Shown: piece by piece, positions 17,994-48,139 of the stretch | How the letters are laid out: the number at the start of each line of letters is the position of its first letter | How positions within the stretch are numbered: position 1 is the first letter of the stretch | From: Oscillospiraceae bacterium | GTDB lineage: Bacteria; Bacillota; Clostridia; Oscillospirales; Oscillospiraceae | Direction of reading: 5' to 3' | Assembly: GCA_017624715.1 (NCBI GenBank) | Contig: JAGAMN010000065.1 | Coordinates: forward strand, 1-48,371 | DNA: 48,371 bases | Made by a program: the position numbers and the translations under genes | Notes under the pieces: model-generated | The model's input: only the letters and a program-made list of their open reading frames with translations | Databases searched by the model: none | Told to the model about the DNA's origin: nothing

Positions 17994-19037
17994 ATGAAAC
18001 AACAACTGGAAAACATCCGGCTGCAGGCACTTTCCAGCCTGGATGCCGCTACTTCCCCTGCCGAACTGGAAGAGCTCCGGGTTAAGTGGCTGGGCAAAAA
18101 GGGCGAGCTGACTGCCGTCTTAAAAATGATGGGTAAGCTGTCCGCTGAGGAGCGTCCCGTAATGGGTCAGATGGCTAACTCCGTCCGTGCCGAGATCGAA
18201 GAAAAGCTGGAAAGCCGCAAGACCCAAATCGGTGCTGCCGTTCTGGAAGCCAAGCTGGCTGCCGAGGCCATCGATGTGACCATTCCCGGTGAGGCTGTGA
18301 CATTGGGTCATCAGCACCCCATGAACATGGTGCTGCAGGAAGTCAAGGACATCTTCGTAGGTCTGGGCTATCAGGTGGTAGATGGCCCTGAGGTGGAGCT
18401 TGCTGACTACAACTTTACCCGGCTGAATATCGAGGAGGGTCATCCTTCCCGTGACCGCAGCGATACCTTCTATTTCACCGACGATGACTCTGTGCTGCTG
18501 CGCACCCAGACCAGCCCCATGCAGATTCGCTTTATGGAAAACCACAAGCCCCCCTTCTGCATGCTGGCTCCCGGCCGTGTGTTCCGTAAGGACGAGGCTG
18601 ACGCCACCCACTCCCCCATGTTCCATCAGATCGAAGGTCTGGTGGTGGATGAGCACATCACCATGGGCGACCTGAAGGGCGCGCTGATCTCCATGATGCG
18701 CAAGATCTACGGTGCGGATTCCGAGATGCGGTTCCGTCCCCACCACTTCCCCTTCACCGAGCCCAGCTGCGAAATGGACATGCAGTGCCACAAGTGCCAC
18801 GGCACCGGTGAAATTGACGGTCAGGTATGCTCCACCTGCCACGGCGAGGGCTGGATCGAGCTGCTAGGTGCCGGTATGGTGCATCCGAAGGTTCTGGAAA
18901 GCTGCGGCATTGACCCTGAAAAGTACTCCGGCTTTGCCTTCGGCATGGGCCTGGAGCGTATGGCGATGGGTCGCATGCGGATCAACGACTTGCGTTTGAT
19001 CTTCGACAACGACGTGCGGTTCCTGAACCAGTTCTAA
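17994..19037 (+). CDS. pheS: Phenylalanine-tRNA ligase alpha subunit
   Basis: The 347-residue catalytic subunit of the (alpha-beta)2 enzyme charges tRNA-Phe. ATG 17994 lies behind AGGAGG. The N-terminal coiled coil (residues 1-85) is followed by the class II core: motif 1 (HPMNMVLQEVKDIFVGLGYQ), motif 2 (FCMLAPGRVFRKDEADATHSPMFHQIEG), FRPHHFPFTEPSCEMD, and motif 3 (FGMGLERMAMGRM). Between the core strands sits a four-cysteine insert, C-H-K-C-H-G-T-G ... C-S-T-C-H-G-E-G, where many homologues have a shorter Cys knuckle. It is T-box controlled and cotranscribed with pheT. Confidence 0.97.
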   Translation: MKQQLENIRLQALSSLDAATSPAELEELRVKWLGKKGELTAVLKMMGKLSAEERPVMGQMANSVRAEIEEKLESRKTQIGAAVLEAKLAAEAIDVTIPGEAVTLGHQHPMNMVLQEVKDIFVGLGYQVVDGPEVELADYNFTRLNIEEGHPSRDRSDTFYFTDDDSVLLRTQTSPMQIRFMENHKPPFCMLAPGRVFRKDEADATHSPMFHQIEGLVVDEHITMGDLKGALISMMRKIYGADSEMRFRPHHFPFTEPSCEMDMQCHKCHGTGEIDGQVCSTCHGEGWIELLGAGMVHPKVLESCGIDPEKYSGFAFGMGLERMAMGRMRINDLRLIFDNDVRFLNQF

Positions 19038-19050
19038 GGAGGGAATTTGA

Positions 19051-21438
19051 ATGAAACTGAACAGAAAATGGCTCCATGAGGAGTTTGTAGACCTGTCTTC
19101 CGTCTCCGACAAGGAATATGTGGAGAAACTCACGGTTTTCGGCCAGAAGGTAGAAACCTGGGAGCGGATGGACACAGAAATCAAGAATGTAAAGGTCGGC
19201 AAGGTGGTTTCCATCGTCCGGCATGAAAATTCCGACCACATGTGGGTCTGCCAGGTGGATGTGGGGGGCGAAGAGCCTGTGCAGATCGTTACCGGCGCAC
19301 AGAATGTCCATGAGGGCGACCTTGTGCCTGCCGCTCTGCACAATTCCTATCTGCCCGGCGGTATTCACATTACCAAGGGTAAGCTCCGTGGCGAAAAGTC
19401 CAACGGTATGCTCTGCTCCTTTGCAGAATTGGGTCTGACCCAGAACGATCTGCCCGGCGCTTACGCTGACGGCATTTGGATTCTTAATGATGAGGACTGC
19501 AAGCCCGGTGACGACATCAATCTGGTCATCGGCAACGATGATACCGTGGTGGATTTTGAGATCACCAACAACCGGCCCGACTGCTATTCCATCATCGGTC
19601 TGGCAAGAGAGTCCGCTGCCGCTTTCGGTAAGCAGATGAAGCACCATGAGCCTGTGGTGAAGGGTTCTGATGCCGGCTCTATGCACGAGATGCTGGATGT
19701 GGAAGTGCCCGCCACCGAGCTGTGCAACCGGTACTCTTCCCGGATGGTTGCGAACGTCAAGATTGCTCCCTCTCCCAAGTGGCTCCGGCAGCGTTTAAGA
19801 GCCAACGGCATCCGTCCCATCAACAACATCGTTGACATTACCAACTATGTGATGCTGGAGTACGGTCAGCCCATGCATGCTTTTGACTACCGCTATGTAG
19901 GCTCCGGCAAGATCATTGTCCGGGAAGCTGAGGAAGGCGAAACTCTGACCACACTGGACGGCAATGTCCGTCAGCTGCAGCCCGGTATGCTGGTCATTGC
20001 TGACGAGAATAAGCCCATCGGCCTGGCCGGTATCATGGGCGGCGAGAACTCCGAGATTTTGGATGACACCACCACTGTGGTGTTCGAATCCGCCAACTTC
20101 AACGGCACCTCCATCCGTCAGACCGCTCTGGCTCTGGGTATGCGTACCGAGTCTTCCGGCAAGTTTGAGAAGAACCTGGACCCCATGATGACTGTGCCTG
20201 CTGTGCAGAGAGCCTGTGAGCTGGTAGAGCTGCTGGGTGCCGGCGATGTGATGGACGGCATTATCGACATCATCAACTATGTCCCCGAGGCAAAAACTCT
20301 GCCTCTGGAGCCCGAGAAGATCAACCGTTTGCTGGGCACCGACATTTCCAAGGAAGAAATGGTCAAGTACCTAAACCTGCTGGAGATCGAAGTGGAGGGC
20401 GATACCATCAAAGTTCCCTCCTTCCGTCCCGACCTGAACCTGATGGCAGATGTGGCTGAGGAAATCGGTCGTTCTTACGGCTATAACGAGATCCCCACCA
20501 CCGCTTTTAAGACCTCTACCCAGGGTGGCTACAGCCCCTATATGCTGGCTGAAAACAAGGCTGGTACTCTGTGCCGCGGTTTGGGTTACAATGAGATCAT
20601 TACCTACTCCTTTGTGTCCCCTGCCATCTTCGACCAGATTCGGCTGGGTACGGATTCCCCTCTGCGTAATGCAATGAAGATCCAGAACCCCTTGGGCGAG
20701 GACACCTCCATTATGCGTACCATCGCTCTGCCCTCCATGCTGGACATTCTGAGCCGTAACAATGCTTATCACAACAAGTCCGTGAAGCTCTACGAGCTGG
20801 CTAAGATCTATCTGCCCACTGCCGGTCAGGTGCTGCCGGAAGAGCCCAAGATGCTGGTTTTGGGTACCTTCGGTGCCGGTGAGACCTTCTTTACCCTGAA
20901 GGGCGAGCTGGAAGCCATCTTTGCCGGTCTGCGGCTGCCCAAGGCAAGCTATGCTGCTGTTTCCGACAACCCCTCTTACCACCCCGGCCGCTGCGCGATG
21001 GTCAGCATCGACGGTGTGGAGCTGGGTTACATGGGTCAAGTGCATCCCCTGGTCGCCAAGAACTATGGCCTGGACTGCGAGGTCTACTGCGCTGAACTGA
21101 ACTTCACCAAACTCTTCGAACTGCGGCTGCCTGATCCCACCTACACCCCCCTGCCCAAGTATCCCAGCGTTACCCGTGACCTGGCTTTGGTCTGCGACGA
21201 GGCTGTGACCGTTGCCAGCTGCGAGGATGTGATCAACGCATCTGCCGGTAAGCTGCTGCGTGGCGTAAAGCTCTTTGACATTTATCGTGGCGTTGGTGTT
21301 CCCGAGGGCAAGAAGAGCCTGGCCTTCTCTCTGGAGCTTCGTGCTGACGACCGGACTTTGACCGACAGCGACTCTGAAGCTGTGGTCAGCAAGGTTCTGT
21401 CCGCTCTGGCTGATAAGCTGGGTGCAACCCTGCGGTAA
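19051..21438 (+). CDS. pheT: Phenylalanine-tRNA ligase beta subunit
   Basis: The 795-residue product starts at ATG 19051 behind AAGGAGG, 13 nt after pheS. Domain order: N-terminal part, EMAP-II/OB-like tRNA-binding domain (residues ~40-150, [23 protein letters not shown] and [23 protein letters not shown]), B3/B4 editing domain ([42 protein letters not shown]), B5 ([23 protein letters not shown]), the inactive class II-like core, and a C-terminal ferredoxin-like anticodon-binding domain ([19 protein letters not shown]). Full family length. Confidence 0.97.
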
Positions 21439-35289: not shown

Positions 35290-36672
35290 TTATTTGCTCG
35301 CATAAACGCTCCAAAACTCCAATCTGTATGTTTCGCCATCTTTCAAGGTGGTATGTAACTGCACTTGCACATCTGTAAAGCTGTCACCCACCGTCAGAGC
35401 AGGGGTAGATACATCGCCAGTTTTGAGCAGATTACCATTTTGATCGTACAATCTCCAGCCGATCTTGCATATCGCACCGTATTCACCGCCCCGGGAATCA
35501 TATGTTTTGACGCCTGACAAACGAACGGTTGAATATACACTGCCAATGGTATAGGCCACATTGGTAATGGAACAAGCTGTATACAAACTGGGCTGATTTG
35601 TGCCTTTATAGAAATACTTGACCGTAGTCGGCAAGGAGTTTACCACGACGATTCTCGCGTAATTCCTCGGTATGATGTTCACAACAAAGCGGGCCTTGTA
35701 CTGTCCGATATTTACATATATCTGCAGAAGTGTTCCGAAGGCATCCATCTCACAGCCGGTAGCGCAATCGGCGCTGGCGCCCATCACACAGTCGATACCC
35801 CAGTCGTTGTACCAGTCTACATACATGGTGGTCCATCTGCAGGCCTTCATGGTGGCATCGTATGCGCTGAACTGAGGTGTGCCGATCTTGATCGTGCCAT
35901 CGTAACCGATATTTTTATAGGTCCAGGTAACCTGAACGGTTTGCTTACCGTCTTTCATGCGGGTTTCGATAGCATCTCCAAAGGATAGTTCAAACAGTCC
36001 ATCTACGACCCATTTTTCACCCGGACGGATGGTGGGCATATAGTTGGAGTCCTTTGCTCCGCAGGATTGACAGGTGCCGGAAACATAGCTATGGCCCTTA
36101 GCAGAGCCTTGGGTCGCGCCGCAGGTATAGCATCTGCGGGGGCTGGTGCAGGTAGCCTCTGACCAGCTATGTCCCAGGGGGGCGCCTTCTGTTGCATAGC
36201 ACCATTGGCATTCTCTAGGGCTGGTGCAGGTAGCTTCCTTCCATGCGTGGCTGCCCTCAACTGTCTTTATCTGTCCGCATTGATAGCACTCCATAGTTGT
36301 ACAGGAGTACCATTTCCATATATGGCCGTCCTCTACATACCTCGTGGTCTCACAAAGGCTGCACTCCTCCAAGTGGCAATCCACATTAAGCCAAACATGG
36401 GCCCTAGGTTCACCTTGAGTAGCGCCGCAGCTCACGCAGGTCTCGGGGCGTTGACAGGTCGCCTCCGACCAGAAGTGGTCGCAGGGAATCTCCGTGGCAG
36501 TGTTTTCTTCTGTTGCCGCCGGTGTCGTTTGCGGCTGTGATGTAGGCGGTACATCTGACGGATTCTGCAAAGATACAGAACCTTGGGTGCTGTCAGGGTT
36601 GTCTTCTGCTCTGCAGGCAGACATACTGAAGAGCATAAAGGTTGCCATGACAAGCGTTATCAAACGTTTCAT
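35290..36672 (-). CDS. Lipoprotein with tandem His/Trp/Cys repeats
   Basis: The 460-residue product starts at ATG 36672 behind AAAGAGG. The signal peptide ends in FSMSAC, lipidated at Cys20. After a Thr/Pro-rich spacer come about six repeats of ~25 residues: H-x-W-x4-C-x4-C-x2-C-G-A-T-x-G (for example HSWSEATCTSPRRCYTCGAT), giving one His and three Cys per unit, as expected for a structural metal or disulfide knuckle. Similar repeats occur in clostridial surface proteins. The C-terminal ~250 residues form a beta-rich, Tyr/Trp-containing domain (VTWTYKNIGYDGTIKIGTP, VRLSGVKTYDSRGGEYGAI) of unknown fold. Confidence 0.82.
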   Translation of the reverse strand: MKRLITLVMATFMLFSMSACRAEDNPDSTQGSVSLQNPSDVPPTSQPQTTPAATEENTATEIPCDHFWSEATCQRPETCVSCGATQGEPRAHVWLNVDCHLEECSLCETTRYVEDGHIWKWYSCTTMECYQCGQIKTVEGSHAWKEATCTSPRECQWCYATEGAPLGHSWSEATCTSPRRCYTCGATQGSAKGHSYVSGTCQSCGAKDSNYMPTIRPGEKWVVDGLFELSFGDAIETRMKDGKQTVQVTWTYKNIGYDGTIKIGTPQFSAYDATMKACRWTTMYVDWYNDWGIDCVMGASADCATGCEMDAFGTLLQIYVNIGQYKARFVVNIIPRNYARIVVVNSLPTTVKYFYKGTNQPSLYTACSITNVAYTIGSVYSTVRLSGVKTYDSRGGEYGAICKIGWRLYDQNGNLLKTGDVSTPALTVGDSFTDVQVQLHTTLKDGETYRLEFWSVYASK

Positions 36673-36881: not shown

Positions 36882-36915
36882 ATAGAAAATGTATGTTCCT
36901 AAGGAGGCGTTGGAT

Positions 36916-39900
36916 ATGCCAGACCCGAAAATGATCCTGCCGCTGCTGGAAGGTTTCCTGATGGGCGACGCCATCAGTGAGCATCACGGCGTCCGCTGCT
37001 ACCCTGCCATGCAGGAAGAAACCAGCGATAAATACATAGTCAAAACTGTCAGTGTTCCCGAATCCGGTGCAAAGCTGGAGGCTCTGCTGCTGGCCGGCGC
37101 ATTTCCGGACAAAGACGCTGCTGTTGCATATTACAAGGACCTGGCGGAAGGTGTGGAAAAGGAAGCTGCTCTATTGCGGAGTCTTTCTCAGCTGGAAGGC
37201 TTCTCCGGCTATGAAGCCTGGCAGACCCAATCTTCTGAGGATGGAGAAAGTTTTGATGTTTGCCTGCTGGGCAAGTACCGCCCCACCCTGGAGCGGCACC
37301 TGAGCCGCAAGCCCATGACCCATCTGGGCGCAGTGAATCTGGGTTTGGATCTTTGCTCTGCACTGGCAGTTTGCCGTCGCAGCGGCTATCTGTATGTGGA
37401 TCTGAAGCCCAGCAATGTGTTTATTTGTGCGGACAATGAATATCGCATCGGCGACCTGGGCTTTATTCCACTGGCATCATTGCAATATGCTTCCCTGCCT
37501 GAAAAATATCACAGCGTTTACACCGCACCGGAAATTACCGATGCTTATTCTGCTCTGAATGACACTTTGGACATTTATGCCGTTGGTCTGATTCTGTATC
37601 AGGTATACAATAACGGACAGCTGCCCACCGTAGAGCCCGGCTCCAACGAGCCTTTGCCCGCTCCGGAGTATGCCGATTACGAAATTGCTTCCATCATTTT
37701 GAAGGCCTGTGATCCCAACCCCCAGGAACGTTGGCAGGATCCTGCCCAAATGGGACAGGCTCTGGTCAACTATATGCAGAGCAACACTGTAAATGACGAT
37801 CCCATCGTGCCCCCGGCTGTACCTGTTGAGATGGTTGAGGAGGATGTTGCTGATGAGGCCGTGGAAGAGGATCCTTCTACCGAAGAGATTCTCTCCGAGG
37901 TGGACCAGGCATTGGAGGCTGTTGGTGTGGAATTGGCAGAAGAAATTCCTGCCGAAGAAGCCCCTGCTGAAGACGTGTCTAACGAGGGAGAAGATGTCCC
38001 GGAAGAGATCCCGGAGGAGGAAACCGGGGAAATTACCGAGGAAATTACAGAAAATGTGACCGATGCGGAAGATGTTGAAGACGAAGTTGCAGAAGAAGCA
38101 GCTGAAGAGGCGGCAGAAGAAGTAATTGAGGACACTGCGGAAGAAGCGCCGGACGACGAACTGGCAGAAATGCTGGCCCAGGCGGATTCCCTGATCGCTC
38201 ACGAAACTCCGGAGCCTGTTGTGGCACCGGCACCCATTGATGTTCCCATTCCGCCCCGGATCATTCTGACCGATGAAGAGCCGGAAGAACAGGAAGCTCA
38301 AGATGAAGTATCGGAAGATATTCCGGAAGAAAGCGAAACAGCGGAGGCTGTGGAAGAAGATCCGGAAGAAGCCGAAGAATACATTGACGACGATACGGAA
38401 GAAGCCACGGAAGAACCTACCCAAACCAAGCGCGGTAAGGGTTTGATCGCTGCGCTGATCTGCTTCATTGTGGCAGCTTCCCTGTTTATCGGTGGATATC
38501 TTTATTACAAATACGAGTATCAGCAGACCATTTACAGCATGTCCTTGTCCGGTGTGGAAGACCGGCTGGCTGTGGCGCTGCACAGCGACATCGACGACGA
38601 GTTGCTGACTGTCATTTGCACCGATGCTTACGGTAACACCAAGCGGCAGAATGTGGTGGGCGGCGTGGCCATGTTTACCGGTCTGACACCGGATACCCGG
38701 TATAAGGTGGAAGTTGAGATCTCCGGATTCCATGAGCTTCTGGGCAAAACCAACGGCGTCTATGTGACAGCGGAAGAAACCATCATTGGTGGTCTTACCG
38801 CAATTGCCGGTCCGGAAAACGGCTCTGTAATTTTGAACTTTACCGTCCGGGGTCCGGAAAGTCCCCAATGGCAGGTATTCTATTCTGCTGAGGGTGAAGA
38901 CGAAAAGAACGTCACCTGCACCGGTCATGTAGCTACCATCAACGGTCTGACCATCGGCAAGCACTACACCTTCCGGGTGGAGCCTAGCACCGAGCTGTAC
39001 CTGGTGGGCACTAATACCGTGGAATTCACCGCTACAAATGCGATTTATCCCGAGAATTTGACCATTGCGGGGTTTGTAAACAACGCCCTTACGGTAACCT
39101 GGACTGCACCGGAGGGTGCAACTGTGAGCAGCTGGACTGTCCGTTGTTACAACGACGCAGGTTACGATAAGACCATCACTGTTACCGATACCACCGCCCT
39201 CTTTGAGGATCTGGATCGGTCCACGCCTTACACGGTGGAGGTTTGCGCCGCCGGTATGTCCCTGGGCAGCCGGGTTTCTCTGGCCGCCAACTCTGTGACC
39301 GTACTTGGCTTTACCGCAGTCACCTCCGATCCTTTGAAGCTGAAGCTGAGCTGGGAATTCGAAGGTACTGCGCCGGCAGGTGGCTGGGTGATTCATTACA
39401 CTGTCAGCGGAATGAAGGATTCTGTGCAAGTGGCAACGGAAGACGCTTCCATTCTGATCGATCCCATCGTTCCCGGCTGTACCTATGTATTTGAAATTCA
39501 GACGGCCAACGGCGATCCTGTGTTTGATGGTACATTCACCTATACTGCTCCCGATGCCGAAACCTTCTCCGGCTATGATATTTCTGCGGAATACTTTGAG
39601 TTTTCCATGTGCCTGACACCGGATAAGGAAGACTGGGATCGGAATGATCTAAAGCCCCAGGACTACACCAACACCTTTGCGGTTGGTCAAAGTGCATCTT
39701 TCTCCATTCGCCTGACCCACGAATACACCACTTCTGCGGATAACATCACCACACTGTTTGTGATCCGCGATGCAGAAGGTTCCCTGGTTCGGGCCGACAC
39801 CTGGAACCAGACCTGGACTTACATGTGGTACCGGGGTTACGGCAAGCTGACCATTCCCGTGATGCCGGAAACCGCCGGCGATTACACCGTGGAGATCTAC

Positions 39901-39945
39901 TTCAACGGCATGTATGTCACCACTCAGAGTTTCACCGTTATTTAA
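36916..39945 (+). CDS. Membrane protein kinase-like protein with acidic linker and extracellular FN3-like repeats
   Basis: The 1009-residue product starts at ATG 36916, 8 nt after AAGGAGG (an ATG at 36889 has no ribosome site). Residues ~1-290 are a Ser/Thr kinase-like domain: K43 in the VAIK position, Y-V-D162-L-K-P-S-N for the HRD loop (D, K and N kept; H and R lost), D180-L-G for DFG, and TAPEI for APE. No clear glycine loop is visible. Residues ~295-505 are extremely Glu-rich; a TM helix (~508-530) follows, then about four FN3-like beta repeats and a final beta domain (~890-1009) outside. Likely an atypical PknB-type receptor; catalytic competence is uncertain. Confidence 0.83.
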   Translation: MPDPKMILPLLEGFLMGDAISEHHGVRCYPAMQEETSDKYIVKTVSVPESGAKLEALLLAGAFPDKDAAVAYYKDLAEGVEKEAALLRSLSQLEGFSGYEAWQTQSSEDGESFDVCLLGKYRPTLERHLSRKPMTHLGAVNLGLDLCSALAVCRRSGYLYVDLKPSNVFICADNEYRIGDLGFIPLASLQYASLPEKYHSVYTAPEITDAYSALNDTLDIYAVGLILYQVYNNGQLPTVEPGSNEPLPAPEYADYEIASIILKACDPNPQERWQDPAQMGQALVNYMQSNTVNDDPIVPPAVPVEMVEEDVADEAVEEDPSTEEILSEVDQALEAVGVELAEEIPAEEAPAEDVSNEGEDVPEEIPEEETGEITEEITENVTDAEDVEDEVAEEAAEEAAEEVIEDTAEEAPDDELAEMLAQADSLIAHETPEPVVAPAPIDVPIPPRIILTDEEPEEQEAQDEVSEDIPEESETAEAVEEDPEEAEEYIDDDTEEATEEPTQTKRGKGLIAALICFIVAASLFIGGYLYYKYEYQQTIYSMSLSGVEDRLAVALHSDIDDELLTVICTDAYGNTKRQNVVGGVAMFTGLTPDTRYKVEVEISGFHELLGKTNGVYVTAEETIIGGLTAIAGPENGSVILNFTVRGPESPQWQVFYSAEGEDEKNVTCTGHVATINGLTIGKHYTFRVEPSTELYLVGTNTVEFTATNAIYPENLTIAGFVNNALTVTWTAPEGATVSSWTVRCYNDAGYDKTITVTDTTALFEDLDRSTPYTVEVCAAGMSLGSRVSLAANSVTVLGFTAVTSDPLKLKLSWEFEGTAPAGGWVIHYTVSGMKDSVQVATEDASILIDPIVPGCTYVFEIQTANGDPVFDGTFTYTAPDAETFSGYDISAEYFEFSMCLTPDKEDWDRNDLKPQDYTNTFAVGQSASFSIRLTHEYTTSADNITTLFVIRDAEGSLVRADTWNQTWTYMWYRGYGKLTIPVMPETAGDYTVEIYFNGMYVTTQSFTVI

Positions 39946-39950
39946 CTATA

Positions 39951-39988
39951 TTCGGCAGCCGAAATTCACCGGCTGCCGAACTTTTTTT
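39951..39988 (+). terminator. Terminator after kinase-like gene
   Basis: TTCGGCAGCC (39951-39960), loop of 10, GGCTGCCGAA (39971-39980), then C and seven T. Confidence 0.92.
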
Positions 39989-39999
39989 CGATTTTTCTC

Positions 40000-40028
40000 T
40001 TGCATTATTCCACCGGTCGTGGTACAAT
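40000..40028 (+). promoter_or_regulatory. Promoter of the aromatic operon
   Basis: TTGCAT (40000-40005), 17-bp spacer, TACAAT (40023-40028). Transcription would start near 40035, 24 nt before the leader-peptide ATG. Confidence 0.85.
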
Positions 40029-40058
40029 GTCCACAACCACTGGAATTGGAGGCCAATT

Positions 40059-40121
40059 ATGAACCACACCATGTTTGCTGCACAGTTTTATTACTATTAC
40101 TTTTTTATGAACAAAAGGTAA
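40059..40121 (+). CDS. Phe/Tyr-rich leader peptide of the aromatic operon
   Basis: The 20-codon frame starts at ATG 40059 behind TTGGAGG and stops at TAA 40119. Eight of its 20 residues are Phe or Tyr, including the uninterrupted run FYYYYFF (codons 40086-40106). It lies between the operon promoter and aroF, whose operon makes the precursors of exactly these two amino acids. Shortage of charged tRNA-Phe or tRNA-Tyr would stall the ribosome about 17 nt before the first antiterminator arm. The peptide itself probably has no function beyond being translated. Confidence 0.9.
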   Translation: MNHTMFAAQFYYYYFFMNKR

Positions 40122-40122
40122 T

Positions 40123-40207
40123 AGCGATTTGTGCTGCAATCCATTGGATGGCATAAGGATGTACTTGTAACTGCTGCACGGAAATCGCTTCTGTGCGGCA
40201 TATTTTA
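40123..40207 (+). promoter_or_regulatory. Transcription attenuator (antiterminator/terminator switch)
   Basis: Arm A (40123-40138, AGCGATTTGTGCTGCA) can pair with arm B (40172-40189): 8 bp, a 2-nt bulge, 4 bp, one mismatch, 3 bp. Arm B can instead pair with arm C (40191-40200): TGCTGCACGG/CTGTGCGGCA, a 10-bp stem with two wobbles followed by TATTTTATTTTAT, a terminator. A ribosome stalled on the Phe/Tyr codons leaves A free (A:B forms, read-through); a ribosome at the stop codon 40119-40121 covers A (B:C forms, termination). No T-box sequence is present. Confidence 0.88.
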
Positions 40208-40228
40208 TTTTATGGGGGTTAATTTACC

Positions 40229-41230
40229 ATGATTGCTATTTTGAAACACGGAACCACCGCTGAGCAAGCCAAGCCTTTGATCGCCTGGTTGCAGAATATG
40301 AATTTGGATGTACACATTTCCGAAGGCCAGGAGGTTACCATTCTCGGCCTGATCGGTGACACCAGCCGGGTAGATGCGGAGCTACTGAGCAGTTTGGAGA
40401 TCGTGGAAAGTGTCAAGCGGGTATCTGAGCCGTTTAAGCAGGCCAACCGGAAATTCCATCCCCAGGATACGGTCATTGAAGTGGGTAATGCCAAGATCGG
40501 CGGCGGTCACTTCGCTATGATTGCCGGCCCTTGTTCCGTAGAATCCGAGGAACAGATCATCGAAGTCGCGGAAGCTGTGAAGGCTGCCGGTGCGGATATT
40601 CTGCGTGGTGGCGCGTTTAAGCCCAGGACTTCCCCCTATGCTTTCCAAGGTATGAAAGATAAAGGCATTCAGCTGCTGCTGAAGGCAAAGCAAGCTACCG
40701 GTCTTCCCATTGTGACGGAAATCATGAACATCCGAGCCCTGGATCTGTTTGCGGATGTGGATATCATTCAGGTTGGCGCCCGGAATATGCAGAATTTTGA
40801 CCTGCTGCAGGAATTGGGCAAGACCAATAAACCCATTTTGCTGAAACGTGGCCTGGCAAATACTCTGCAGGAGCTGCTGATGAGCGCGGAATATATTATG
40901 AGTGAGGGCAACGAAAACGTGATCCTCTGTGAGCGTGGTATCCGCACCTTTGAAACCTACACCCGCAACACTTTGGATCTTTCCGCCGTTTCTGTGATTC
41001 ACGATCTGAGCCATCTGCCGGTGATCGTAGATCCCAGCCATGCTACAGGCAAAGCCAAGCTGGTTCCCCCTATGGCTCTGGCAGCCACCGCCGCCGGTGC
41101 CGACGGCATCATGGTTGAGGTTCACAACAACCCCGCCTGCGCCCTGTGTGACGGTGCCCAGTCCCTGACTCCTGCTCAGTTCAGCGAACTGAACGCAAAG
41201 GTCAGCAAGCTTCGGGAGGCGATGGTGTGA
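40229..41230 (+). CDS. aroF: 3-deoxy-7-phosphoheptulonate (DAHP) synthase, type I-beta
   Basis: The 333-residue enzyme condenses PEP and erythrose 4-phosphate in the first shikimate step. The N-terminal ~70 residues are the ACT-like/ferredoxin-like regulatory domain of Bacillus and Thermotoga type enzymes ([21 protein letters not shown]). The barrel follows with [13 protein letters not shown] (metal Cys), [75 protein letters not shown] (metal His region) and [17 protein letters not shown]. It is the first gene of the operon and lies directly behind the attenuator. Confidence 0.97.
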
Positions 41231-42057
41231 CCGTTGGAATCTTAGGTTTGGGTCTGATCGGCGGGTCTATAGCAAGAGCCTACGCCAAAGCCGGGCATAC
41301 TGTGCTGGCAGCCGATACGGATTCCGCCATTCTGGAATTTGCAAAAATTGCCGGGGCTGTCCATGGGGTTTTGGACGACAGTACCATTGGTTCATGCCAA
41401 CTGATCCTACTAGCTATTTATCCCAAGGGCTGCGCAGATTGGTTGGAAAAGCACGGGGCGCAAATCACCAAAGGCACTTTGGTTATGGACCTTTGCGGCA
41501 TCAAGGAAGAGATCTGCAAGCGTTGTTTCCCTGTTGCGGAAAAATACGGATTTACCTTTGTGGGCGGTCATCCCATGGCAGGCTCTCATTACTCCGGCTT
41601 TAAATACAGCCGCAGCAACCTTTTCCAGGGTGCGCCCATGGTACTGGTGCCGCCGAAATTTGACGATATTGAACTGCTGCAACGGGTAAAGGATACCCTC
41701 TTACCTTGCGGTTTTGGGCGATTTTCCGTTTGCACAGCATCGGAACACGACAGGCTCATTGCTTTTACTTCGCAGATGCCCCATGTACTGTCCAACGGCT
41801 ATATCAAATCCCCCACTGCCGATTCTCATCAGGGCTTTTCTGCCGGCAGTTACAAGGATCTGACCCGGGTGGCTTGGCTCAATCCCCAAATGTGGGCAGA
41901 GCTGTGCATGGAAAACAGAGAGAATATGCTCTTTGAAATCAATACCTATATCAAAAATCTGCAGGCCTATCAAAAGGCTCTGGAAGATGAGGATATTTCG
42001 GCTCTGACTGCTTTACTGGAGGAGGGCCGCAAGCGAAAAGAGGAGGTAGACGGATGA
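41227..42057 (+). CDS. tyrA: Prephenate dehydrogenase
   Basis: The 276-residue NAD-dependent enzyme oxidatively decarboxylates prephenate to 4-hydroxyphenylpyruvate for Tyr. GTG 41227 overlaps the aroF stop (GTGA). Motifs: N-terminal Rossmann VGILGLGLIGGSIARAYAKAG, DLCGIKEEICKRC, GGHPMAGSHYSGFKYSRSNLF (catalytic His in HPMAGS), and LIAFTSQMPHVLSNGYI with the second conserved His. There is no fused chorismate mutase and no C-terminal ACT domain, so feedback by Tyr may rest on transcription attenuation. Confidence 0.95.
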   Translation: MTVGILGLGLIGGSIARAYAKAGHTVLAADTDSAILEFAKIAGAVHGVLDDSTIGSCQLILLAIYPKGCADWLEKHGAQITKGTLVMDLCGIKEEICKRCFPVAEKYGFTFVGGHPMAGSHYSGFKYSRSNLFQGAPMVLVPPKFDDIELLQRVKDTLLPCGFGRFSVCTASEHDRLIAFTSQMPHVLSNGYIKSPTADSHQGFSAGSYKDLTRVAWLNPQMWAELCMENRENMLFEINTYIKNLQAYQKALEDEDISALTALLEEGRKRKEEVDG

Positions 42058-43088
42058 ACAAGATCCGGATACGAGCTTCAAAAGAATACGATGTGTGCAT
42101 CGGTACCGGCCTGCTCAGTCAGTTGGGAACGCTGATTGCACAATTATGCAAAGTTCAAAAGGCCGCCATCATCAGCGACAGCCATGTTTGGCCCCTATAT
42201 GGTCAGGCTGCAAAAAGCAGTTTGGTGCAAGCTGGATTCGAGGTCGTAAATTATGTTTTTCCTGCCGGGGAAAGCAGCAAAAATGGCTTGACCTTTCTGT
42301 CCATTCTGAACTTTCTGGCAGAAAACCAGCTGACGAGAACGGATTGCATCATCGCCCTTGGCGGCGGTGTGGTTGGAGATTTGGCCGGCTTTGCCGCTGC
42401 CACCTATTTACGGGGCATCGATTATATCCAAGTGCCCACCACTTTGTTGGCGGCGGTGGATTCGTCCGTGGGTGGCAAGACCGCTATTGATCTGCCTGCG
42501 GGTAAAAATCTGGCAGGTTGTTTCTATCAACCCAAGCTGGTGGTTTGTGATATTGACACCCTAAGCACCCTCCCTGCCCCGGTTTTCCGGGACGGCTGTG
42601 CCGAGGTGATCAAATACGGTGTTCTGTTTGACCCGGCGCTATTTGTGCATCTTGAACACGCAGGTATTGCCTTTGACCGAAAAGCCGTCATTACCCGGTG
42701 CGTAGAACTCAAGAATGCGGTGGTGTCCGAAGACGAATTTGACACCGGGCGGCGGATGCTGCTGAACCTGGGGCACACCATCGGACACGGTATTGAAGCT
42801 AGCAGCAATTTTTCCGTTTCCCACGGACAAGCCGTAGCAATTGGCATGGCCATTGTGGCCAGAAGCAGTGGATGTGCGGATGCCGGGCGGATCATTGGCT
42901 GCTTACAGCGGTTTGGGCTACCCACCGAAACGACACTATCCGCCCAGGTACTGGCCGCGGCTGCCCTTTCCGACAAAAAAAGGTCAGCAGACACCGTTAA
43001 ACTGGTTTTGCCGGAGAGAATCGGCAGCTGCCAGATTGTGCCTACCCCCGTAGGCCAACTTTTATCCTTGATTGAAGCAGGACTTTGA
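42054..43088 (+). CDS. aroB: 3-dehydroquinate synthase
   Basis: The 344-residue NAD- and zinc-dependent enzyme cyclises DAHP to 3-dehydroquinate. ATG 42054 overlaps the tyrA stop. Motifs: GGGVVGDLAGFAAATYLRGI (NAD loop), QVPTTLLAAVDSSVGGKTAID, NLAGCFYQPKLVV, GCAEVIKYG (zinc Glu), NLGHTIGHGIE (zinc His) and VSHGQAVAIGM (zinc His). All catalytic residues expected for the family are visible. The end lies 1 nt before the aroA ATG. Confidence 0.97.
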   Translation: MNKIRIRASKEYDVCIGTGLLSQLGTLIAQLCKVQKAAIISDSHVWPLYGQAAKSSLVQAGFEVVNYVFPAGESSKNGLTFLSILNFLAENQLTRTDCIIALGGGVVGDLAGFAAATYLRGIDYIQVPTTLLAAVDSSVGGKTAIDLPAGKNLAGCFYQPKLVVCDIDTLSTLPAPVFRDGCAEVIKYGVLFDPALFVHLEHAGIAFDRKAVITRCVELKNAVVSEDEFDTGRRMLLNLGHTIGHGIEASSNFSVSHGQAVAIGMAIVARSSGCADAGRIIGCLQRFGLPTETTLSAQVLAAAALSDKKRSADTVKLVLPERIGSCQIVPTPVGQLLSLIEAGL

Positions 43089-43089
43089 T

Positions 43090-44277
43090 ATGGACATTAC
43101 CATTCAGCCCCGGCAGTTGCAGGGGCAAGTAAAAATCATTCCTTCCAAATCCCAGGCCCATCGACTACTGATCAGCGCTGCTTTTGCAGACCGGGAGACT
43201 ATCTTGCTGTGTCCGCATGCCAGTAAGGACATTGCAGCCACGGCGGATTGCCTGAATGCCTTGGGTGCTGACATCACCCGGACGGATCTGGGATATCACA
43301 TCGTACCCATTGCGGAAGTTCCCGAAACTGCCGTGCTTAATTGTTGCGAAAGCGGCTCTACTTTGCGGTTTTTGCTGCCCATTGTGGGTGCATTGGGTGT
43401 GGATGCGGTTTTCCAGATGGAAGGACGGCTGTCTCAGCGTCCCCTCTCTCCCCTTTGGGAGGAAATGGAACGGATGGGCAACAAGCTGGAGTGGCTGGGT
43501 AACAATCAGCTGCATTGCTTTGGCAATCTCCACAGCGGAGAATATCGAATTGATGGCGGTGTTTCCAGCCAGTTTATTACGGGATTGCTGTTTGCTGCAT
43601 CCTTGATGGAAGGCAATAGTAACATTGCCATTCTTGGGAAGCTGGAGTCCAAGAACTATGTAGCTATGACCCAGCAGGCTATGGCGCTGTTTGGAGTGCA
43701 GACAGAAAATTTCTCCATATCCGGTGGTCAAACCTACCGTTCCCCCGGTGAGATAGCCGTAGAGGGCGATTGGAGCAACGGTGCATTTTGGCTGGTTGCA
43801 CAGGCTTTGGGCAATGATGTTCAGGTTTTGGGGTTGGACGAAAATTCTGCCCAGGGTGACCGGACGGTTTTGCCCATCCTGGCAGAATTAAAAAACCGTC
43901 ATATGGATATTTGCGTTGCGGACATTCCGGATCTGGTTCCGGTTTTGGCGGTGGCAGCCAGCGCTTTTCAGGGTGCAACATTTACCGGCATCCGGCGGCT
44001 GCGGTTAAAAGAATCCGACCGGGTGGCTTCCACAGTTTCCATGATCGAGCAGCTTGGATGCCGTGCGGAGGCAACCGAAGATACTTTGACCGTATATCCC
44101 GGAATCTTACGCGGCGGCATTGTGGATGCCTGCAATGATCACCGGATTGCCATGGCGGCAGCCATTGCTGCTACGGTATGCAAGGAGCCGGTGGCGATTA
44201 TGGGTGCGCATTGTGTAGCGAAGTCTTATCCCGGTTTTTGGGAAGAATATCAACTTTTAGGAGGGAATTATGCGTAG
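43090..44277 (+). CDS. aroA: 3-phosphoshikimate 1-carboxyvinyltransferase (EPSP synthase)
   Basis: The 395-residue enzyme transfers enolpyruvyl from PEP to shikimate 3-phosphate. The start is ATG 43090 (MDITIQPRQLQGQVK), with AGCAGGA about 10 nt upstream; a TTG at 43072 is an alternative. Motifs: IIPSKSQAHRLLISAA (S-K-S-x-x-x-R), CCESGSTLRFLLPI, GRLSQRPLSPLWEEM, GGVSSQFITGLLFAA, LKESDRVAS and DACNDHRIAMAAAIAAT. It is about 30 residues shorter than typical enzymes. The loop reads E-S-G-S-T-L-R where glyphosate-sensitive class I enzymes have N-A-G-T-A-M-R. Confidence 0.95.
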   Translation: MDITIQPRQLQGQVKIIPSKSQAHRLLISAAFADRETILLCPHASKDIAATADCLNALGADITRTDLGYHIVPIAEVPETAVLNCCESGSTLRFLLPIVGALGVDAVFQMEGRLSQRPLSPLWEEMERMGNKLEWLGNNQLHCFGNLHSGEYRIDGGVSSQFITGLLFAASLMEGNSNIAILGKLESKNYVAMTQQAMALFGVQTENFSISGGQTYRSPGEIAVEGDWSNGAFWLVAQALGNDVQVLGLDENSAQGDRTVLPILAELKNRHMDICVADIPDLVPVLAVAASAFQGATFTGIRRLRLKESDRVASTVSMIEQLGCRAEATEDTLTVYPGILRGGIVDACNDHRIAMAAAIAATVCKEPVAIMGAHCVAKSYPGFWEEYQLLGGNYA

Positions 44278-45340
44278 TACTTGCGGTGAAAACTTAAAAC
44301 TCTCCATTTTCGGCGAATCTCACGGTCCTGTTGTAGGCATGACCTTAGAGGGTATTCCTGCCGGGTTAGCGATAGATTTGGAAAAGTTGCAGGTGTTTCT
44401 GCAACGCAGAGCGCCGGGTCAAAATGCTTGGTCCACGCCCCGGAAAGAGGCTGACCTGCCGGAGTTTTCTGAGGGTATGCAAGACGGCATTACCAACGGT
44501 GGGCCGATCACGGCGGTGATCCACAATCAAAATACCCGATCCGGGGATTACGGCAATGTGCTATGCTGTCCCCGGCCCGGACATGCGGATTTTACCTCTT
44601 ATGTAAAATACGGTGAGATTTTTCCCGGCGGCGGCCATTTCTCCGGGCGGATGACTGCGCCCATGTGCATTGCCGGCGGTATGTGCAAGCAATGGCTGGA
44701 GAACATGGGCATCCAGATCGGGGCTCATGTTTTGCAGATCGGTACGGCAGAGGACGAGGCTTTTGATGCTGTAGATCCCCGACTGGATATGGTAAATTCC
44801 GACTTCCCTACTCTTTCTAAAAATGCCGGGGAAGACATGCAGGCGCAAATTGCTGCTGCCAAAAAAGAATTGGATAGCCTGGGTGGCTGGATCGAGTGCG
44901 CCATTACCGGCTTGCCTGCCGGTATCGGAGATCCCATGTTCGGCGGTGTGGAAAACCGGATCGCTCAAATCGTTTACGGCATTCCTGCGGTAAAGGGTTT
45001 GGTGTTCGGCGATACGCAAAATACCGGCAGTGAAAACAACGATTCTTTTACCGTAGAAAACAGTATTGTTAAGACTTTGACCAATCACTGCGGCGGTATC
45101 CTGGGCGGCATTACCAACGGCATGCCGGTGATTTTTAAGGTTGCTATCAAGCCCACGCCTTCCATAGGTAAGCCACAGCAGACGGTAAATCTGCAAACCG
45201 GAGAAGTGACCACCATCCAAGTCAAAGGGCGGCACGATCCTTGCATCGTGCCCCGGGCTGTACCGGTGGTGGAGGCAGCGGCAGCTATCGCCTTGTATGA
45301 TATGATCCTGGGAACTCCCCAGACTGACAGGAGGAAATAA
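44270..45340 (+). CDS. aroC: Chorismate synthase
   Basis: The 356-residue FMN-dependent enzyme makes chorismate from EPSP. ATG 44270 overlaps aroA by 8 nt, with AGGAGGG at 44260. Motifs: LSIFGESHGPVVGMTLEGIPAG, LQRRAPGQNAWSTPRKEAD, ITNGGPITAVIHNQNTRSGDY, RPGHADFTSYVKYG, GGHFSGRMTAP, NHCGGILGGITNGMPVIF and the C-terminal KGRHDPCIVPRAVPVVEA with the conserved Arg-His. Length is normal. Confidence 0.97.
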   Translation: MRSTCGENLKLSIFGESHGPVVGMTLEGIPAGLAIDLEKLQVFLQRRAPGQNAWSTPRKEADLPEFSEGMQDGITNGGPITAVIHNQNTRSGDYGNVLCCPRPGHADFTSYVKYGEIFPGGGHFSGRMTAPMCIAGGMCKQWLENMGIQIGAHVLQIGTAEDEAFDAVDPRLDMVNSDFPTLSKNAGEDMQAQIAAAKKELDSLGGWIECAITGLPAGIGDPMFGGVENRIAQIVYGIPAVKGLVFGDTQNTGSENNDSFTVENSIVKTLTNHCGGILGGITNGMPVIFKVAIKPTPSIGKPQQTVNLQTGEVTTIQVKGRHDPCIVPRAVPVVEAAAAIALYDMILGTPQTDRRK

Positions 45341-45342
45341 TT

Positions 45343-46485
45343 ATGGATATTACAGCGCTTCGAGGGAAAATTGACGGCATTGATGATCAGCTGGTGGAGC
45401 TGTTTGGTAAGCGAATGGAAATTGCCGCGCAGATCGCAAAATATAAACGTGAAAACAATTTGCCAATTTTGGTACCCGGTCGGGAACGGGAAAAATTGGT
45501 CGATGTGGCCGCAAAAGCAGGCCCCGAGATGGCTAACTACACCCGGGTACTGTACTCCATGCTCTTCGAGCTAAGTCGCAGTTATCAGAGCAAGCTTGGC
45601 GATACACCTACTGATCTGTACAAGCAAATTGTTCAGGCAATTGAGACGACCCCAAAACTGTTTCCACAGCAAGCCATGGTAGCTTGCCAAGGAGTGGAGG
45701 GTGCTTACTCTCAAATCGCCTGCGAAAAGATTTTCAAAAATCCCATGATTATGTACTTCAAGAATTTTGAAGGCGTATTTACAGCCATTGAACAGGGACT
45801 GTGCCAGTATGGCATCCTTCCCATCGAAAATTCCACTGCCGGTTCTGTAAAAAAGGTCTACGACTTGATGATCCGTCACGACTTTTCCATTGTGCGGAGC
45901 TTCCGGCTGAAGATCGATCATAATCTACTGGTAAATCCAGGCGCAAAGCTGGAGGATATCACAGAGATTTATTCTCATGAGCAAGCCATTGGTCAATGCA
46001 ATGAATTTCTTTCCGGCTTGAAGAATGTAAAGCTGATCCCCGTGGAAAATACCGCAGTGGCTGCGGAGATGGTCAAGCAAAGCGGACGCAAGGATATCGC
46101 TGCCATTGCCAGCAGAAGCTGTATGGAGCTTTACGGGCTGGCTTGCCTGCAAGCAGCCATTCAGGATAAGGGCAACAACTATACCCGGTTTATTTGTATC
46201 AGCAAGGGATTGCAGATCTACCCCGGCGCAGATAAAACCAGTATCATGATGGTGCTGAATCACCGCCCCGGCGCCCTGTATAAGGTACTGGCCCGGATGT
46301 ATGTACTGGGCATTAATGTGACAAAACTGGAATCCAGGCCTTTGCCCGACCGGGATTTCGAGTTCATGTTCTATTTTGATCTGGATACATCCATTTACGC
46401 ACAGGAGTTTGTGCAGTTAATTTGTGAGCTGGACGAGCTGTGCGATGAATTCAAGTATCTGGGCAGCTACAGCGAGGTCGTTTAA
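45343..46485 (+). CDS. pheA: Bifunctional chorismate mutase/prephenate dehydratase
   Basis: The 380-residue enzyme is the P-protein of phenylalanine synthesis. Residues 1-85 are an AroQ-type chorismate mutase (LRGKIDGIDDQLVELFGKRM, catalytic R, E and K positions). Residues ~105-285 are prephenate dehydratase (ACQGVEGAYSQIACEKIF, LPIENSTAGSVKKVYDLM, SHEQAIGQCNEFL; the TRD-type loop reads NYTRFICI). Residues ~298-372 are an ACT domain with NHRPGALYKVLARMYVLGIN and the Phe-binding ESRPL. Feedback inhibition by Phe is expected. Stop and aroE start overlap (TAATG). Confidence 0.95.
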   Translation: MDITALRGKIDGIDDQLVELFGKRMEIAAQIAKYKRENNLPILVPGREREKLVDVAAKAGPEMANYTRVLYSMLFELSRSYQSKLGDTPTDLYKQIVQAIETTPKLFPQQAMVACQGVEGAYSQIACEKIFKNPMIMYFKNFEGVFTAIEQGLCQYGILPIENSTAGSVKKVYDLMIRHDFSIVRSFRLKIDHNLLVNPGAKLEDITEIYSHEQAIGQCNEFLSGLKNVKLIPVENTAVAAEMVKQSGRKDIAAIASRSCMELYGLACLQAAIQDKGNNYTRFICISKGLQIYPGADKTSIMMVLNHRPGALYKVLARMYVLGINVTKLESRPLPDRDFEFMFYFDLDTSIYAQEFVQLICELDELCDEFKYLGSYSEVV

Positions 46486-47711
46486 TGCGTTGCGGTTTAT
46501 TGGGCGAAAAACTGGGGCACAGCTACTCCCCTGCCATTCACGGACAGTTGGGGGATTATTCCTACGAGTTTTTTGAAAAGAAACCCGAGGAACTGGCGGA
46601 TTTTCTGACCAAGGGTGATTTTGCAGGACTGAATGTGACCATTCCTTACAAGAAGGCTGTGCTCCCCTACTGCGCAGAACTGACTCCCCAGGCAGAAGCT
46701 TTGGGGGCAGTGAACACCATTATTCGCAGAAGTGATGGCAGTTTATTGGGTCACAACACCGATTATTCTGGCTTTAAGACTATGCTGCAGCACTCCGGGC
46801 TGAAGGTTGCCGGAAAGAGGGCGTTGGTTCTTGGCAGCGGTGGTGCATCCAACACAGCAGTTGCGGTGCTGAAAGCAGCCGGCGCACAGGTCATTGTGAT
46901 CTCCCGGCAGGGTGAGGATAACTATGAGAATCTGCATTTACACGCAGACGCGGCAGTGATCGTAAATGCGACCCCTGTGGGAATGTATCCGGATACGGAT
47001 GCAATACCGGTGGATATTGGGCAGTTTTCCAAGCTGGAAGGTGTGCTGGATCTGATTTACAATCCGGCAAGAACCCGGCTGATTCAGGCTGCAGCCAAAC
47101 AGGGTTTGGTTGCAGAAAACGGCCTGCTGATGCTGGTGGCACAAGCTAAGGAAGCCAGCGAGTGGTTTACCGGAGCTGCCATTGCCGACGACAAGGTCAC
47201 GACCATTTATAAGCAGATGAAGCAGCAGATGGAAAACATTGTTTTGATCGGTATGCCCGGCAGCGGCAAGTCTACCGTTGGTAAGCTGCTGGCGGAACAG
47301 ACCGGCAAGGCCTTTGCGGATGCGGACGAACTGATCCCAGAATTGGCAGGCAAATCCATTCAGCAAATTTTTGCTGAGGATGGTGAAGAAGTATTCCGGC
47401 AATGGGAGACGAAAGCGCTTACTGCTTTGGGTAAAAAAACCGGGATGGTGATTGCCACCGGCGGCGGCTGCGTGATGCGGGCTGAAAATGAAGCGATTCT
47501 GCGGCAAAACGGCAGGATTTTCTGCCTGGAGCGGCAGTTGGAATCGCTGGATACCCAGGGCCGCCCGTTGTCGCAAACAAGCGGTGTTGCGCAACTGTAT
47601 CGCATTCGCAAGCCGCTGTATGCGCAGTTTGCGGATTACACTATTGATAACAATGGCGCACCGGAGGATACGGTTGCTGAAATTTTGCAGCATTGGGAGG
47701 AAATACTATGA
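46485..47711 (+). CDS. aroE/aroK: Fused shikimate dehydrogenase-shikimate kinase
   Basis: The 408-residue protein combines two pathway steps. Residues 1-245 are AroE: GLLGEKLGHSYSPAIHGQLG, GLNVTIPYKKAVLPYC (catalytic K), GAVNTIIR, GHNTDYSGFKTML (catalytic D), NADP loop LVLGSGGASNTAVAVLKAAG and SRQGEDNYENL, NATPVGMYP, ENGLLMLVAQA. Residues ~248-408 are AroK: LIGMPGSGKSTVGKLLAEQ (P-loop), DADELIPELAG, IFAEDGEEVFRQWE, IATGGGCVMR, and RPLSQ lid. The join is only a few residues (KQMKQQMEN), and no internal ribosome site is evident. The reading frame is continuous. Confidence 0.95.
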   Translation: MRCGLLGEKLGHSYSPAIHGQLGDYSYEFFEKKPEELADFLTKGDFAGLNVTIPYKKAVLPYCAELTPQAEALGAVNTIIRRSDGSLLGHNTDYSGFKTMLQHSGLKVAGKRALVLGSGGASNTAVAVLKAAGAQVIVISRQGEDNYENLHLHADAAVIVNATPVGMYPDTDAIPVDIGQFSKLEGVLDLIYNPARTRLIQAAAKQGLVAENGLLMLVAQAKEASEWFTGAAIADDKVTTIYKQMKQQMENIVLIGMPGSGKSTVGKLLAEQTGKAFADADELIPELAGKSIQQIFAEDGEEVFRQWETKALTALGKKTGMVIATGGGCVMRAENEAILRQNGRIFCLERQLESLDTQGRPLSQTSGVAQLYRIRKPLYAQFADYTIDNNGAPEDTVAEILQHWEEIL

Positions 47712-48139
47712 AAATCATGGTCATCAACGGCCCGAACATCAATATGTTGGGCATCCGAGAGCCGGGTATTTACGGCGCAAATTCCTTTGCAGATCTTTGG
47801 GCACTGATCGATGCCACCGCCAAGGCGGAAGGGTTGGAGATCGAGCAATTCCAATCCAATCACGAAGGGGCAATTGTGGACAAAATTCAGGAATGCTACG
47901 GCAAAGTCGATGGCATTGTCATCAATCCTGCCGCCTATACCCACACATCCATTGCTATTTTGGATGCGCTGAAAGCGGTGGGTATTCCGGCAGTGGAGGT
48001 GCATATCTCCAAGGTAAGTGACCGGGAGGCGTTCCGGCAGATTTCTTATCCGGGAATGTACTGCGAAAAAACCATCCAGGGTAAGGGGCTAAGTGGTTAC
48101 ACTGACGCCATTTTGTACTTGAAAGAGAAATATGGGTAA
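47708..48139 (+). CDS. aroQ: Type II 3-dehydroquinate dehydratase
   Basis: The 143-residue enzyme dehydrates 3-dehydroquinate to 3-dehydroshikimate. ATG 47708 overlaps the aroE/K stop and lies behind GGGAGG. Motifs: VINGPNINMLGIREPGIYG (catalytic Tyr in the lid), IEQFQSNHEGAIVDKIQEC, GIVINPAAYTHTSIAILDAL, PAVEVHISKVSDREAFRQISY (catalytic His) and GLSGYTDAILYL. It completes the set of seven shikimate enzymes in one operon and is its last gene. Confidence 0.96.
   Translation: MKIMVINGPNINMLGIREPGIYGANSFADLWALIDATAKAEGLEIEQFQSNHEGAIVDKIQECYGKVDGIVINPAAYTHTSIAILDALKAVGIPAVEVHISKVSDREAFRQISYPGMYCEKTIQGKGLSGYTDAILYLKEKYG

Follow-up and report, generated by a model that had tools for sequence, protein, structure and literature searches.

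A candidate ribosome-mediated attenuator with mixed phenylalanine and tyrosine codons upstream of an aromatic operon in Oscillospiraceae

The aromatic operon and its leader region

Analysis of the window (the whole 48,371-nt stretch of Oscillospiraceae DNA that was examined) revealed eight genes of aromatic amino acid biosynthesis on the forward strand, in the order aroF-tyrA-aroB-aroA-aroC-pheA-aroEK-aroQ, with neighbours that overlap or are separated by at most 2 nt. These genes encode successively: DAHP synthase with a ferredoxin-like domain (aroF, 40229..41230; PF00793, PF18152), prephenate dehydrogenase (tyrA, 41227..42057; PF02153, PF20463), 3-dehydroquinate synthase (aroB, 42054..43088; PF01761), EPSP synthase with an uncertain start codon (aroA, 43072..44277; PF00275), chorismate synthase (aroC, 44270..45340; PF01264), chorismate mutase-prephenate dehydratase (pheA, 45343..46485; PF01817, PF00800), a shikimate dehydrogenase/shikimate kinase fusion (aroE-aroK, 46485..47711; PF08501, PF01202) and type II dehydroquinase (aroQ, 47708..48139; PF01220), for which the ORF list also allows a longer frame from 47693. 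The operon is preceded by an intergenic region of 283 nt. The gene just upstream of the leader region described below (36889-39945) encodes a protein with protein-kinase-like and fibronectin type III domains and is followed by a terminator-like hairpin (39951-39980); the product of 35290-36672, on the reverse strand, seems to begin like a lipoprotein and carries repeats of a Cys/His unit resembling C-x-x-C-G-A-T-x-G.

The intergenic region contains, on the forward strand, a putative leader gene with its own signals. A promoter-like site, TTGCAT and TACAAT with a 17-nt spacer (40000..40028), was read from the sequence; its -35 box has 3 of 6 matches and the site is absent from the list of a consensus promoter scan, and a loose promoter pattern accompanies all 81 leaders of the genus, the spacer being 17 nt long in 80 of them and 16 nt in the remaining one. 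The initial annotation had described a frame of 20 codons behind a good ribosome site, with 8 of 20 residues Phe or Tyr and seven of them consecutive. This description is exact: the Shine-Dalgarno motif GGAGG (40048..40052; an SD-like motif is present in 79 of the 81 genus leaders) is followed by the ORF MNHTMFAAQFYYYYFFMNKR (40059..40121), which carries the run F-Y-Y-Y-Y-F-F (40086..40106), recovered also by the genus comparison, and ends in TAA with an in-frame TAG directly behind it. The start is ATG and the stop TAA in 81 of 81 genus leaders.

Such a run is rare by chance. When the 283-nt region was shuffled 20,000 times with its dinucleotides preserved, an ORF of 10-45 residues with at least 7 F/Y in 8 arose 7 times; the reverse strand of the region reaches at most 3 F/Y in 8. 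In a six-frame scan of short ORFs across the window, 7 F/Y were found at this site only (with two start codons), the next four candidates having 5. The 201 nt from 40040 to 40240 fold with a z of -4.2 against 200 shuffles.

Three helices can be drawn for the leader RNA. The protector hairpin, which like the promoter-like site is additional to the initial annotation, pairs segment 1, CTATTACTTTTT (40094..40105), lying within the Tyr/Phe codons and placed by alignment pairing, with AAAAGGTAATAG (40113..40124), which spans the stop codon and is placed by folding and alignment pairing. The antiterminator is formed by segment 2, AGCGATTTGTGCTGCA (40123..40138), and segment 3 (40172..40189), which includes the 5' arm of the terminator; both arms are supported by folding, alignment and permutation. 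As first annotated, segment 2 begins 1 nt after the stop codon (TAA, 40119-40121) and pairs over 15 bp, a 2-nt GG bulge and a U.U mismatch interrupting the helix in the fold of 40123-40189. No further copy of the segment 2 block was found in the window's own genome. The intrinsic terminator hairpin (segments 3:4, 40172..40200), recognised by pattern scan, folding and covariation, is followed by a T-rich tail (40201..40213; sequence and pattern scan) and by the start of aroF at 40229, again as annotated. An RNA ending at 40189, before the 3' arm of the terminator, adopts the antiterminator fold (-21.7 kcal/mol), and the longer RNA 40123-40210 adopts the terminator fold (-29.1 kcal/mol). Since the terminator is favoured, antitermination must be kinetic.

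A ribosome-mediated attenuator is characterized by (i) a translatable leader ORF with a ribosome site between promoter and first gene, (ii) a run of codons for the pathway products, (iii) an intrinsic terminator before the first gene, and (iv) an antiterminator that excludes the terminator and is backed by comparison. The first is predicted here from the signals described; the run and the terminator are present, the products in question being those expected from the enzyme content of the operon; and comparative support for the antiterminator is given below, with roughly half of the distant loci giving a weak signal individually.

As for these products, TrpE/PabB-type chorismate-binding enzymes (PF00425) were undetected in 100 of the 101 genus genomes and found in one; none was detected in the 28 genus genomes with at least 90% completeness and at most 5% contamination, nor in the window's own genome (86% complete). 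Because these enzymes are undetected in all but one of the genus genomes, phenylalanine and tyrosine are probably the only amino-acid products of the operon, and a run of F and Y without W is likely to match them. A tracking of TrpE presence by W in the leader was tested in 18 genomes of wider relatives and found no support, W standing in or beside the run in two genomes with the enzyme (G225, G261) and two without it (G259, G260). The window's own genome has two PALP-family genes (PF00291; loci L093 and L255), read as TrpB-like, downstream of T-boxes, which together with the failure to detect TrpE/PabB suggests the use of external tryptophan or indole.

Conservation and occurrence of the leader

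The initial annotation had proposed to judge the element by the upstream regions of aroF in relatives, and there the leader frame, the run, the stop position and the arms recur across the genus. The genus sample comprised 101 genomes including the window's own; aroF was found in 86, and upstream DNA was available for 85 loci, one genome (G041) being excluded because its aroF match is partial. An ORF with at least 6 F/Y in 8 ends about 100 nt before aroF in 81 of the 85 loci, and all 81 leaders have a terminator below -8 kcal/mol. Of the four misses, L072 lies on a contig that provides only 71 nt ahead of the gene, L083 and L084 have a divergent aroF (70 and 64% identity), and L085 (59% identity) was counted as leaderless with an inexactly placed gene start, the match beginning at residue 80. 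The leader peptides follow a pattern like A-A-Q-F-[YF]-F-x-Y-Y-Y-F-F...K-K, with exchanges between F and Y at upstream positions of the run (F57/Y8, Y39/F31 and F61/Y18; n=80).

Support for the helices was counted on an alignment of 81 rows, whose kinship inflates such counts. The terminator is 96.6% paired, with two-sided changes in 7 of 9 pairs and 57 two-sided cells, a level reached in 0 of 500 shuffles; the compensatory changes anticipated for the arms are therefore present in this helix. The antiterminator core is 99.4% paired with a two-sided change in 2 of 6 pairs, and its arms are coupled: native pairs exceed permuted ones in the genus (77), in the named and phylum sets (71) and in their union (138), with 0 of 2000 permutations as good in each case. 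The protector helix is paired in 98.8% of cells (81 sequences) and almost invariant, and so has little covariation support within the genus.

Beyond the genus, the run and the terminator recur with different sequences in other genera and families. Among the best 80 of 591 aroF relatives from a search of named contigs, some of whose genomes are shared with the genus set, 67 carry an ORF with at least 5 F/Y in 8 on the forward strand, with a terminator below -8 kcal/mol in 66 of them. The record titles are mostly Oscillospiraceae, Clostridia, Bacillota, Ruminococcaceae and Lachnospiraceae, and the few with other phylum names may be binning errors. In the family sample aroF was found in 49 of 61 genomes, 47 of them of other genera; the best copies of 45 were scanned together. 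Of the two genomes outside this batch, G166 showed no leader when scanned, and the sequence ahead of aroF in G272 is too short. At least 5 F/Y in 8 were found in 27 of the 45 loci (reverse strand, 0 of 45), each with a terminator of -8 kcal/mol or lower. In the phylum sample (aroF in 143 of 159 genomes; 80 loci scanned), 5 loci reach 6 in 8 (reverse strand, 0) and 8 reach 5 in 8 (reverse strand, 1). The forward and reverse counts indicate that the element is frequent in the family of the window and its near relatives and uncommon elsewhere in the phylum sample. Of 20 aroF loci whose leader is missing or weak, one has a T-box upstream, so most of the leaderless loci examined have neither device. 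This one (L186, 220-462, reverse strand; 130 bits) precedes an aroF homologue in another family and suggests that one sensor of tRNA charging can replace another.

The distance from the codon run to the start of the antiterminator, taken from the best pairing of a segment downstream of the run with the 5' arm of the terminator, has a median of 19 nt in the genus (IQR 18-19, 81 loci), 19 nt in the named set (IQR 15-21, 55 loci), 20 nt in the family (IQR 17-26, 32 loci) and 16 nt in the phylum (IQR 9-20, 8 loci), compared with an IQR of about 6-33 in shuffled sequences. Judged by the footprint of a ribosome, the spacing in the genus, named and family sets, narrower than in shuffles, is suited to stalling, as was first claimed. 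At loci where no more than 5 of 100 shuffles were as good, the position of the antiterminator varies less relative to the run (sd 4.9 in the named set, 5.6 in the family) than relative to the stop codon (18.2 and 15.6); in the genus it is equally fixed to both (sd 1.2 to the stop, 2.0 to the run). The stop codon stands directly before segment 2 in the genus, and at several other loci the ORF passes through segment 2; in both arrangements one would expect segment 2 to lie under a ribosome that finishes the run. Tested locus by locus, the antiterminator was equalled by at most 5 of 100 shuffles at 73 of the 81 genus loci, 29 of the 55 in the named set, 15 of the 32 in the family and 2 of the 8 in the phylum; under different settings the counts were 71 of 81, 36 of 65 and 2 of 8.

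Codon content and operon content

For comparison of leader codons with operon genes, 159 loci were classed by the genes that follow aroF, and the leader at each was chosen by F+Y+W density and SD motif, a rule neutral between F and Y. The class means exclude four loci where tyrA comes next but the sequence after it is too short, as well as seven of other gene order. In fused operons (tyrA, then other pathway genes) the leader, recognised in 113 of 118 loci, 30 from the genus, has a Y/(F+Y) of 0.50 (sd 0.11); repeat genomes were kept, and outside the genus loci L001-L030 the 83 fused loci represent 78 distinct leaders with the same mean of 0.50. Where aroB comes next and tyrA is not found in the fetched stretch, which in 8 of these 18 loci is too short to show pheA, the fraction is 0.22 (leader in 16 of 18). 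Where tyrA alone follows aroF it is 0.69 (leader in 10 of 12), a class that retains L120, whose F-rich ORF is probably no leader and without which the mean of the remaining nine is 0.77. Mann-Whitney tests, which ignore common descent, gave p values of 1e-3 for tyrA alone against no tyrA and 7e-8 and 2e-4 for the other pairs of classes.

In a quick tree of aroF the Tyr copies of split operons cluster as a single clade, with most of the Phe copies as its sister group, and the main split therefore amounts essentially to a single event. Other parts of the tree also contain F-rich leaders at loci where tyrA is not next (L128/L129, L283, L285, L170). The codon rule has an exception, L166, with F2 Y5 and no tyrA next. 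No tyrA was detected in two genomes with F-rich leaders, G283 (F8 Y1; 91% complete) and G329 (the genome of L170, F4 Y2).

Eight genomes (G324, G282, G279, G315, G320, G313, G290, G327) have a recognised leader at both types of operon. Taken over the entire leader, the Y fraction lies between 0.00 and 0.40 ahead of the Phe operon and between 0.55 and 1.00 ahead of tyrA, the predicted direction in 8 of 8, seven of them deriving from one split. In G323 a leader was recognised at neither operon, and in G321 at tyrA only. Four genomes (G301, G278, G316, G295) have tyrA elsewhere with no leader found before it, and G328 shows nothing convincing there; G330 has a Y7 F1 ORF and a terminator before tyrA, with no SD motif found and no leader before aroF. 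In G288, G293 and G302 the classing did not extend to both copies. Antiterminator pairing in the split operons varies: at the Phe leaders L294, L295 and L297, 0, 7 and 2 of 100 shuffles were as good, and at the Tyr leaders L309 and L310, where there is no signal, 21 and 82.

A change of codons between otherwise similar leaders is seen in the paralogous pair of G327. The leaders of aroF and tyrA in this genome share 114 of 181 positions, with GCAAGGTCTTTTGTCGTTGT and AACGATAAAAGACCGC common to both as arm blocks, and differ in the codon runs, FYSFFYGFAFFFS against YGKYYYGFAYYRC; the peptides read FFYGFAFFFS and YYYGFAYYRC. The antiterminator of the aroF copy, taken singly, was equalled by 8 of 100 shuffles. 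Since G327 is a metagenome bin, the pairing of its two leaders assumes correct binning.

From these comparisons it appears likely, with some reserve, that codon swapping has given the attenuators of this lineage new specificities: the switch itself, with its arms, spacing and terminator, would be duplicated or inherited and only the codon run rewritten, giving Phe and Tyr codons in fused operons, Phe codons in Phe operons and Tyr codons in Tyr operons.

A group of seven split-operon Phe leaders upstream of aroF (L311, L313, L317, L319, L320, L322, L326) shares a motif like GWARFMGxGFF, in which Trp and Arg each occur at least once; an RNA constraint, a Trp input and an effect of the nascent chain are candidate roles for this motif.

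Mechanism, alternatives and relation to known systems

The element is very probably a ribosome-mediated transcription attenuator that senses charged tRNA-Phe and tRNA-Tyr jointly and controls the Phe/Tyr operon (shikimate pathway, tyrA and pheA). The attenuator reading proposed in the initial annotation gains support from recurrence, compensatory changes in the terminator and coupling of the antiterminator arms. The frame, the codons, the three helices, their geometry, their conservation and the fit of codons to operons are drawn from comparison of sequences; stalling, termination and the response to starvation are what these would imply. A shortage of either charged tRNA would make the leader ribosome stall in the Phe/Tyr run and break the protector hairpin (1:2), leaving segment 2, about 19 nt downstream of the run, free. 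Segments 2 and 3 would then form the antiterminator, the terminator 3:4 would be blocked, and polymerase would continue into aroF. When both tRNAs are plentiful, the ribosome would reach the stop codon and mask the start of segment 2, so that 3:4 forms and transcription ends about 20 nt before aroF. If the leader is not translated, 1:2 would form and 3:4 would terminate by default.

Among other explanations, nascent-peptide arrest survives best and is nonetheless unlikely. In this case the hydrophobic FY peptide would stall in the exit tunnel on a ligand, as in TnaC, and the codons would matter only as amino acids. The genus has a recognisable peptide pattern, and the seven split-operon Phe leaders have their common W-A-R-F-M-G-x-G-F-F-like motif, both of which speak for such a mechanism; yet F and Y interchange at several positions of the run, and in other genera the run varies while its distance to the antiterminator remains constant. 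The tracking of operon content by codon content also argues for codons as such, as does the position of the genus-invariant Y-Y-F codons in an RNA helix.

It is very improbable that the terminator is constitutive or under protein control, that the leader ORF serves only for coupling of translation and transcription, and that the FY run reflects T-richness and hairpin constraints. Although the run is T-rich and lies partly within the protector stem, the shuffles of the intergenic region, which share its dinucleotide content, reached it in only 7 of 20,000 cases, and ORFs with 5 F/Y in 8 are far more common on the forward strand (8 of 80 and 27 of 45) than on the reverse (1 of 80 and 0 of 45). 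Furthermore, what distinguishes the leaders of different operon types is the choice between F and Y, a matter of amino-acid identity and not of T-richness.

A T-box or another tRNA- or ligand-binding riboswitch is scarcely credible here, for although T-boxes are common in the window's own genome (14 matches, 8 above the cut-off) and L186 has one before aroF, no Rfam 15 leader family matched at its gathering score in the window or in 20 relatives (19 of them leader-bearing), and the seven matches that the leader itself gave at E<=10 have E values of at least 0.2 and lie far below the gathering scores.

The T-boxes of this genome are found at other genes. A match at 17706-17940 of the window, which at 84.6 bits falls short of the gathering score of 93 (E 3.8e-19), lies directly upstream of pheS-pheT (17994-21438) and has UUC at the presumed specifier position, so the window probably contains two different RNA devices that sense Phe-tRNA. 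Another (L088, 118.5 bits, UAC) precedes, with one ORF between, a gene of the Trp/Tyr synthetase family read as tyrS. The initial annotation had named T-boxes or TRAP as the usual devices of Firmicutes for aromatic genes; this genome does employ T-boxes, but at the synthetases (pheST and the tyrS-like gene). A His-codon pattern gave 40 matches in the same genome.

The attenuator, as interpreted here, resembles classical systems. The pheA (pheL) and trp (trpL) leaders of Escherichia coli combine a leader ORF carrying end-product codons, an antiterminator and a terminator that exclude each other, and a protector hairpin, all of which have counterparts in the present leader. Unlike these, it has mixed Phe and Tyr codons, precedes an operon of the whole common pathway with both branches, belongs to a lineage of Clostridia and matches no Rfam leader family. 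The thr and ilv attenuators of E. coli likewise serve branched operons with several regulatory amino acids in one leader; here the codon set of relatives divides where the operon divides. T-box leaders (RF00230) also sense tRNA charging, by direct tRNA binding and with no leader peptide, and the present leader has no T-box match.

The suggestion that ribosome-mediated attenuation is foreign to Firmicutes is contradicted by two published sets of candidates. His-leader attenuators, also ribosome-mediated but with His codons and at his operons, have been proposed in Firmicutes including Eubacteriales, in 17 species according to the abstract (PMC9413887). The uORFC-13-1 element, described upstream of aroF only in Acholeplasma and environmental sequences, combines a possible promoter and RBS with a stretch of U that codes for Phe, followed by an apparent intrinsic terminator and then by aroF, with further base-paired substructure noted; the portions consulted give at least one Phe codon and do not mention Tyr codons, in contrast to the mixed run found here (PMC8632094). 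A mixed Phe/Tyr leader was not found in the open-licence literature, searched mostly by title and start of abstract; the sections consulted of PMC2494555 and PMC8040213 contain no mixed Phe/Tyr attenuator, and in the latter the term 'leader peptide' does not occur. The mechanism is classical, and the leader of mixed Phe/Tyr codons is new relative to the open-licence texts searched.

As read here, a mechanism associated chiefly with Proteobacteria gains a Phe/Tyr attenuator that is frequent in the family of the window and occurs in other genomes labelled Clostridia. Within one genome both tRNAs appear to be sensed in two ways, by T-boxes at the synthetases and by translation at the biosynthetic operon. 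The partition of codons between operons is a natural counterpart of the classical codon-replacement experiment and points to how an RNA switch could change its signal with no change of structure. Leader codons may in this way help to predict the products of operons in uncultured genomes.
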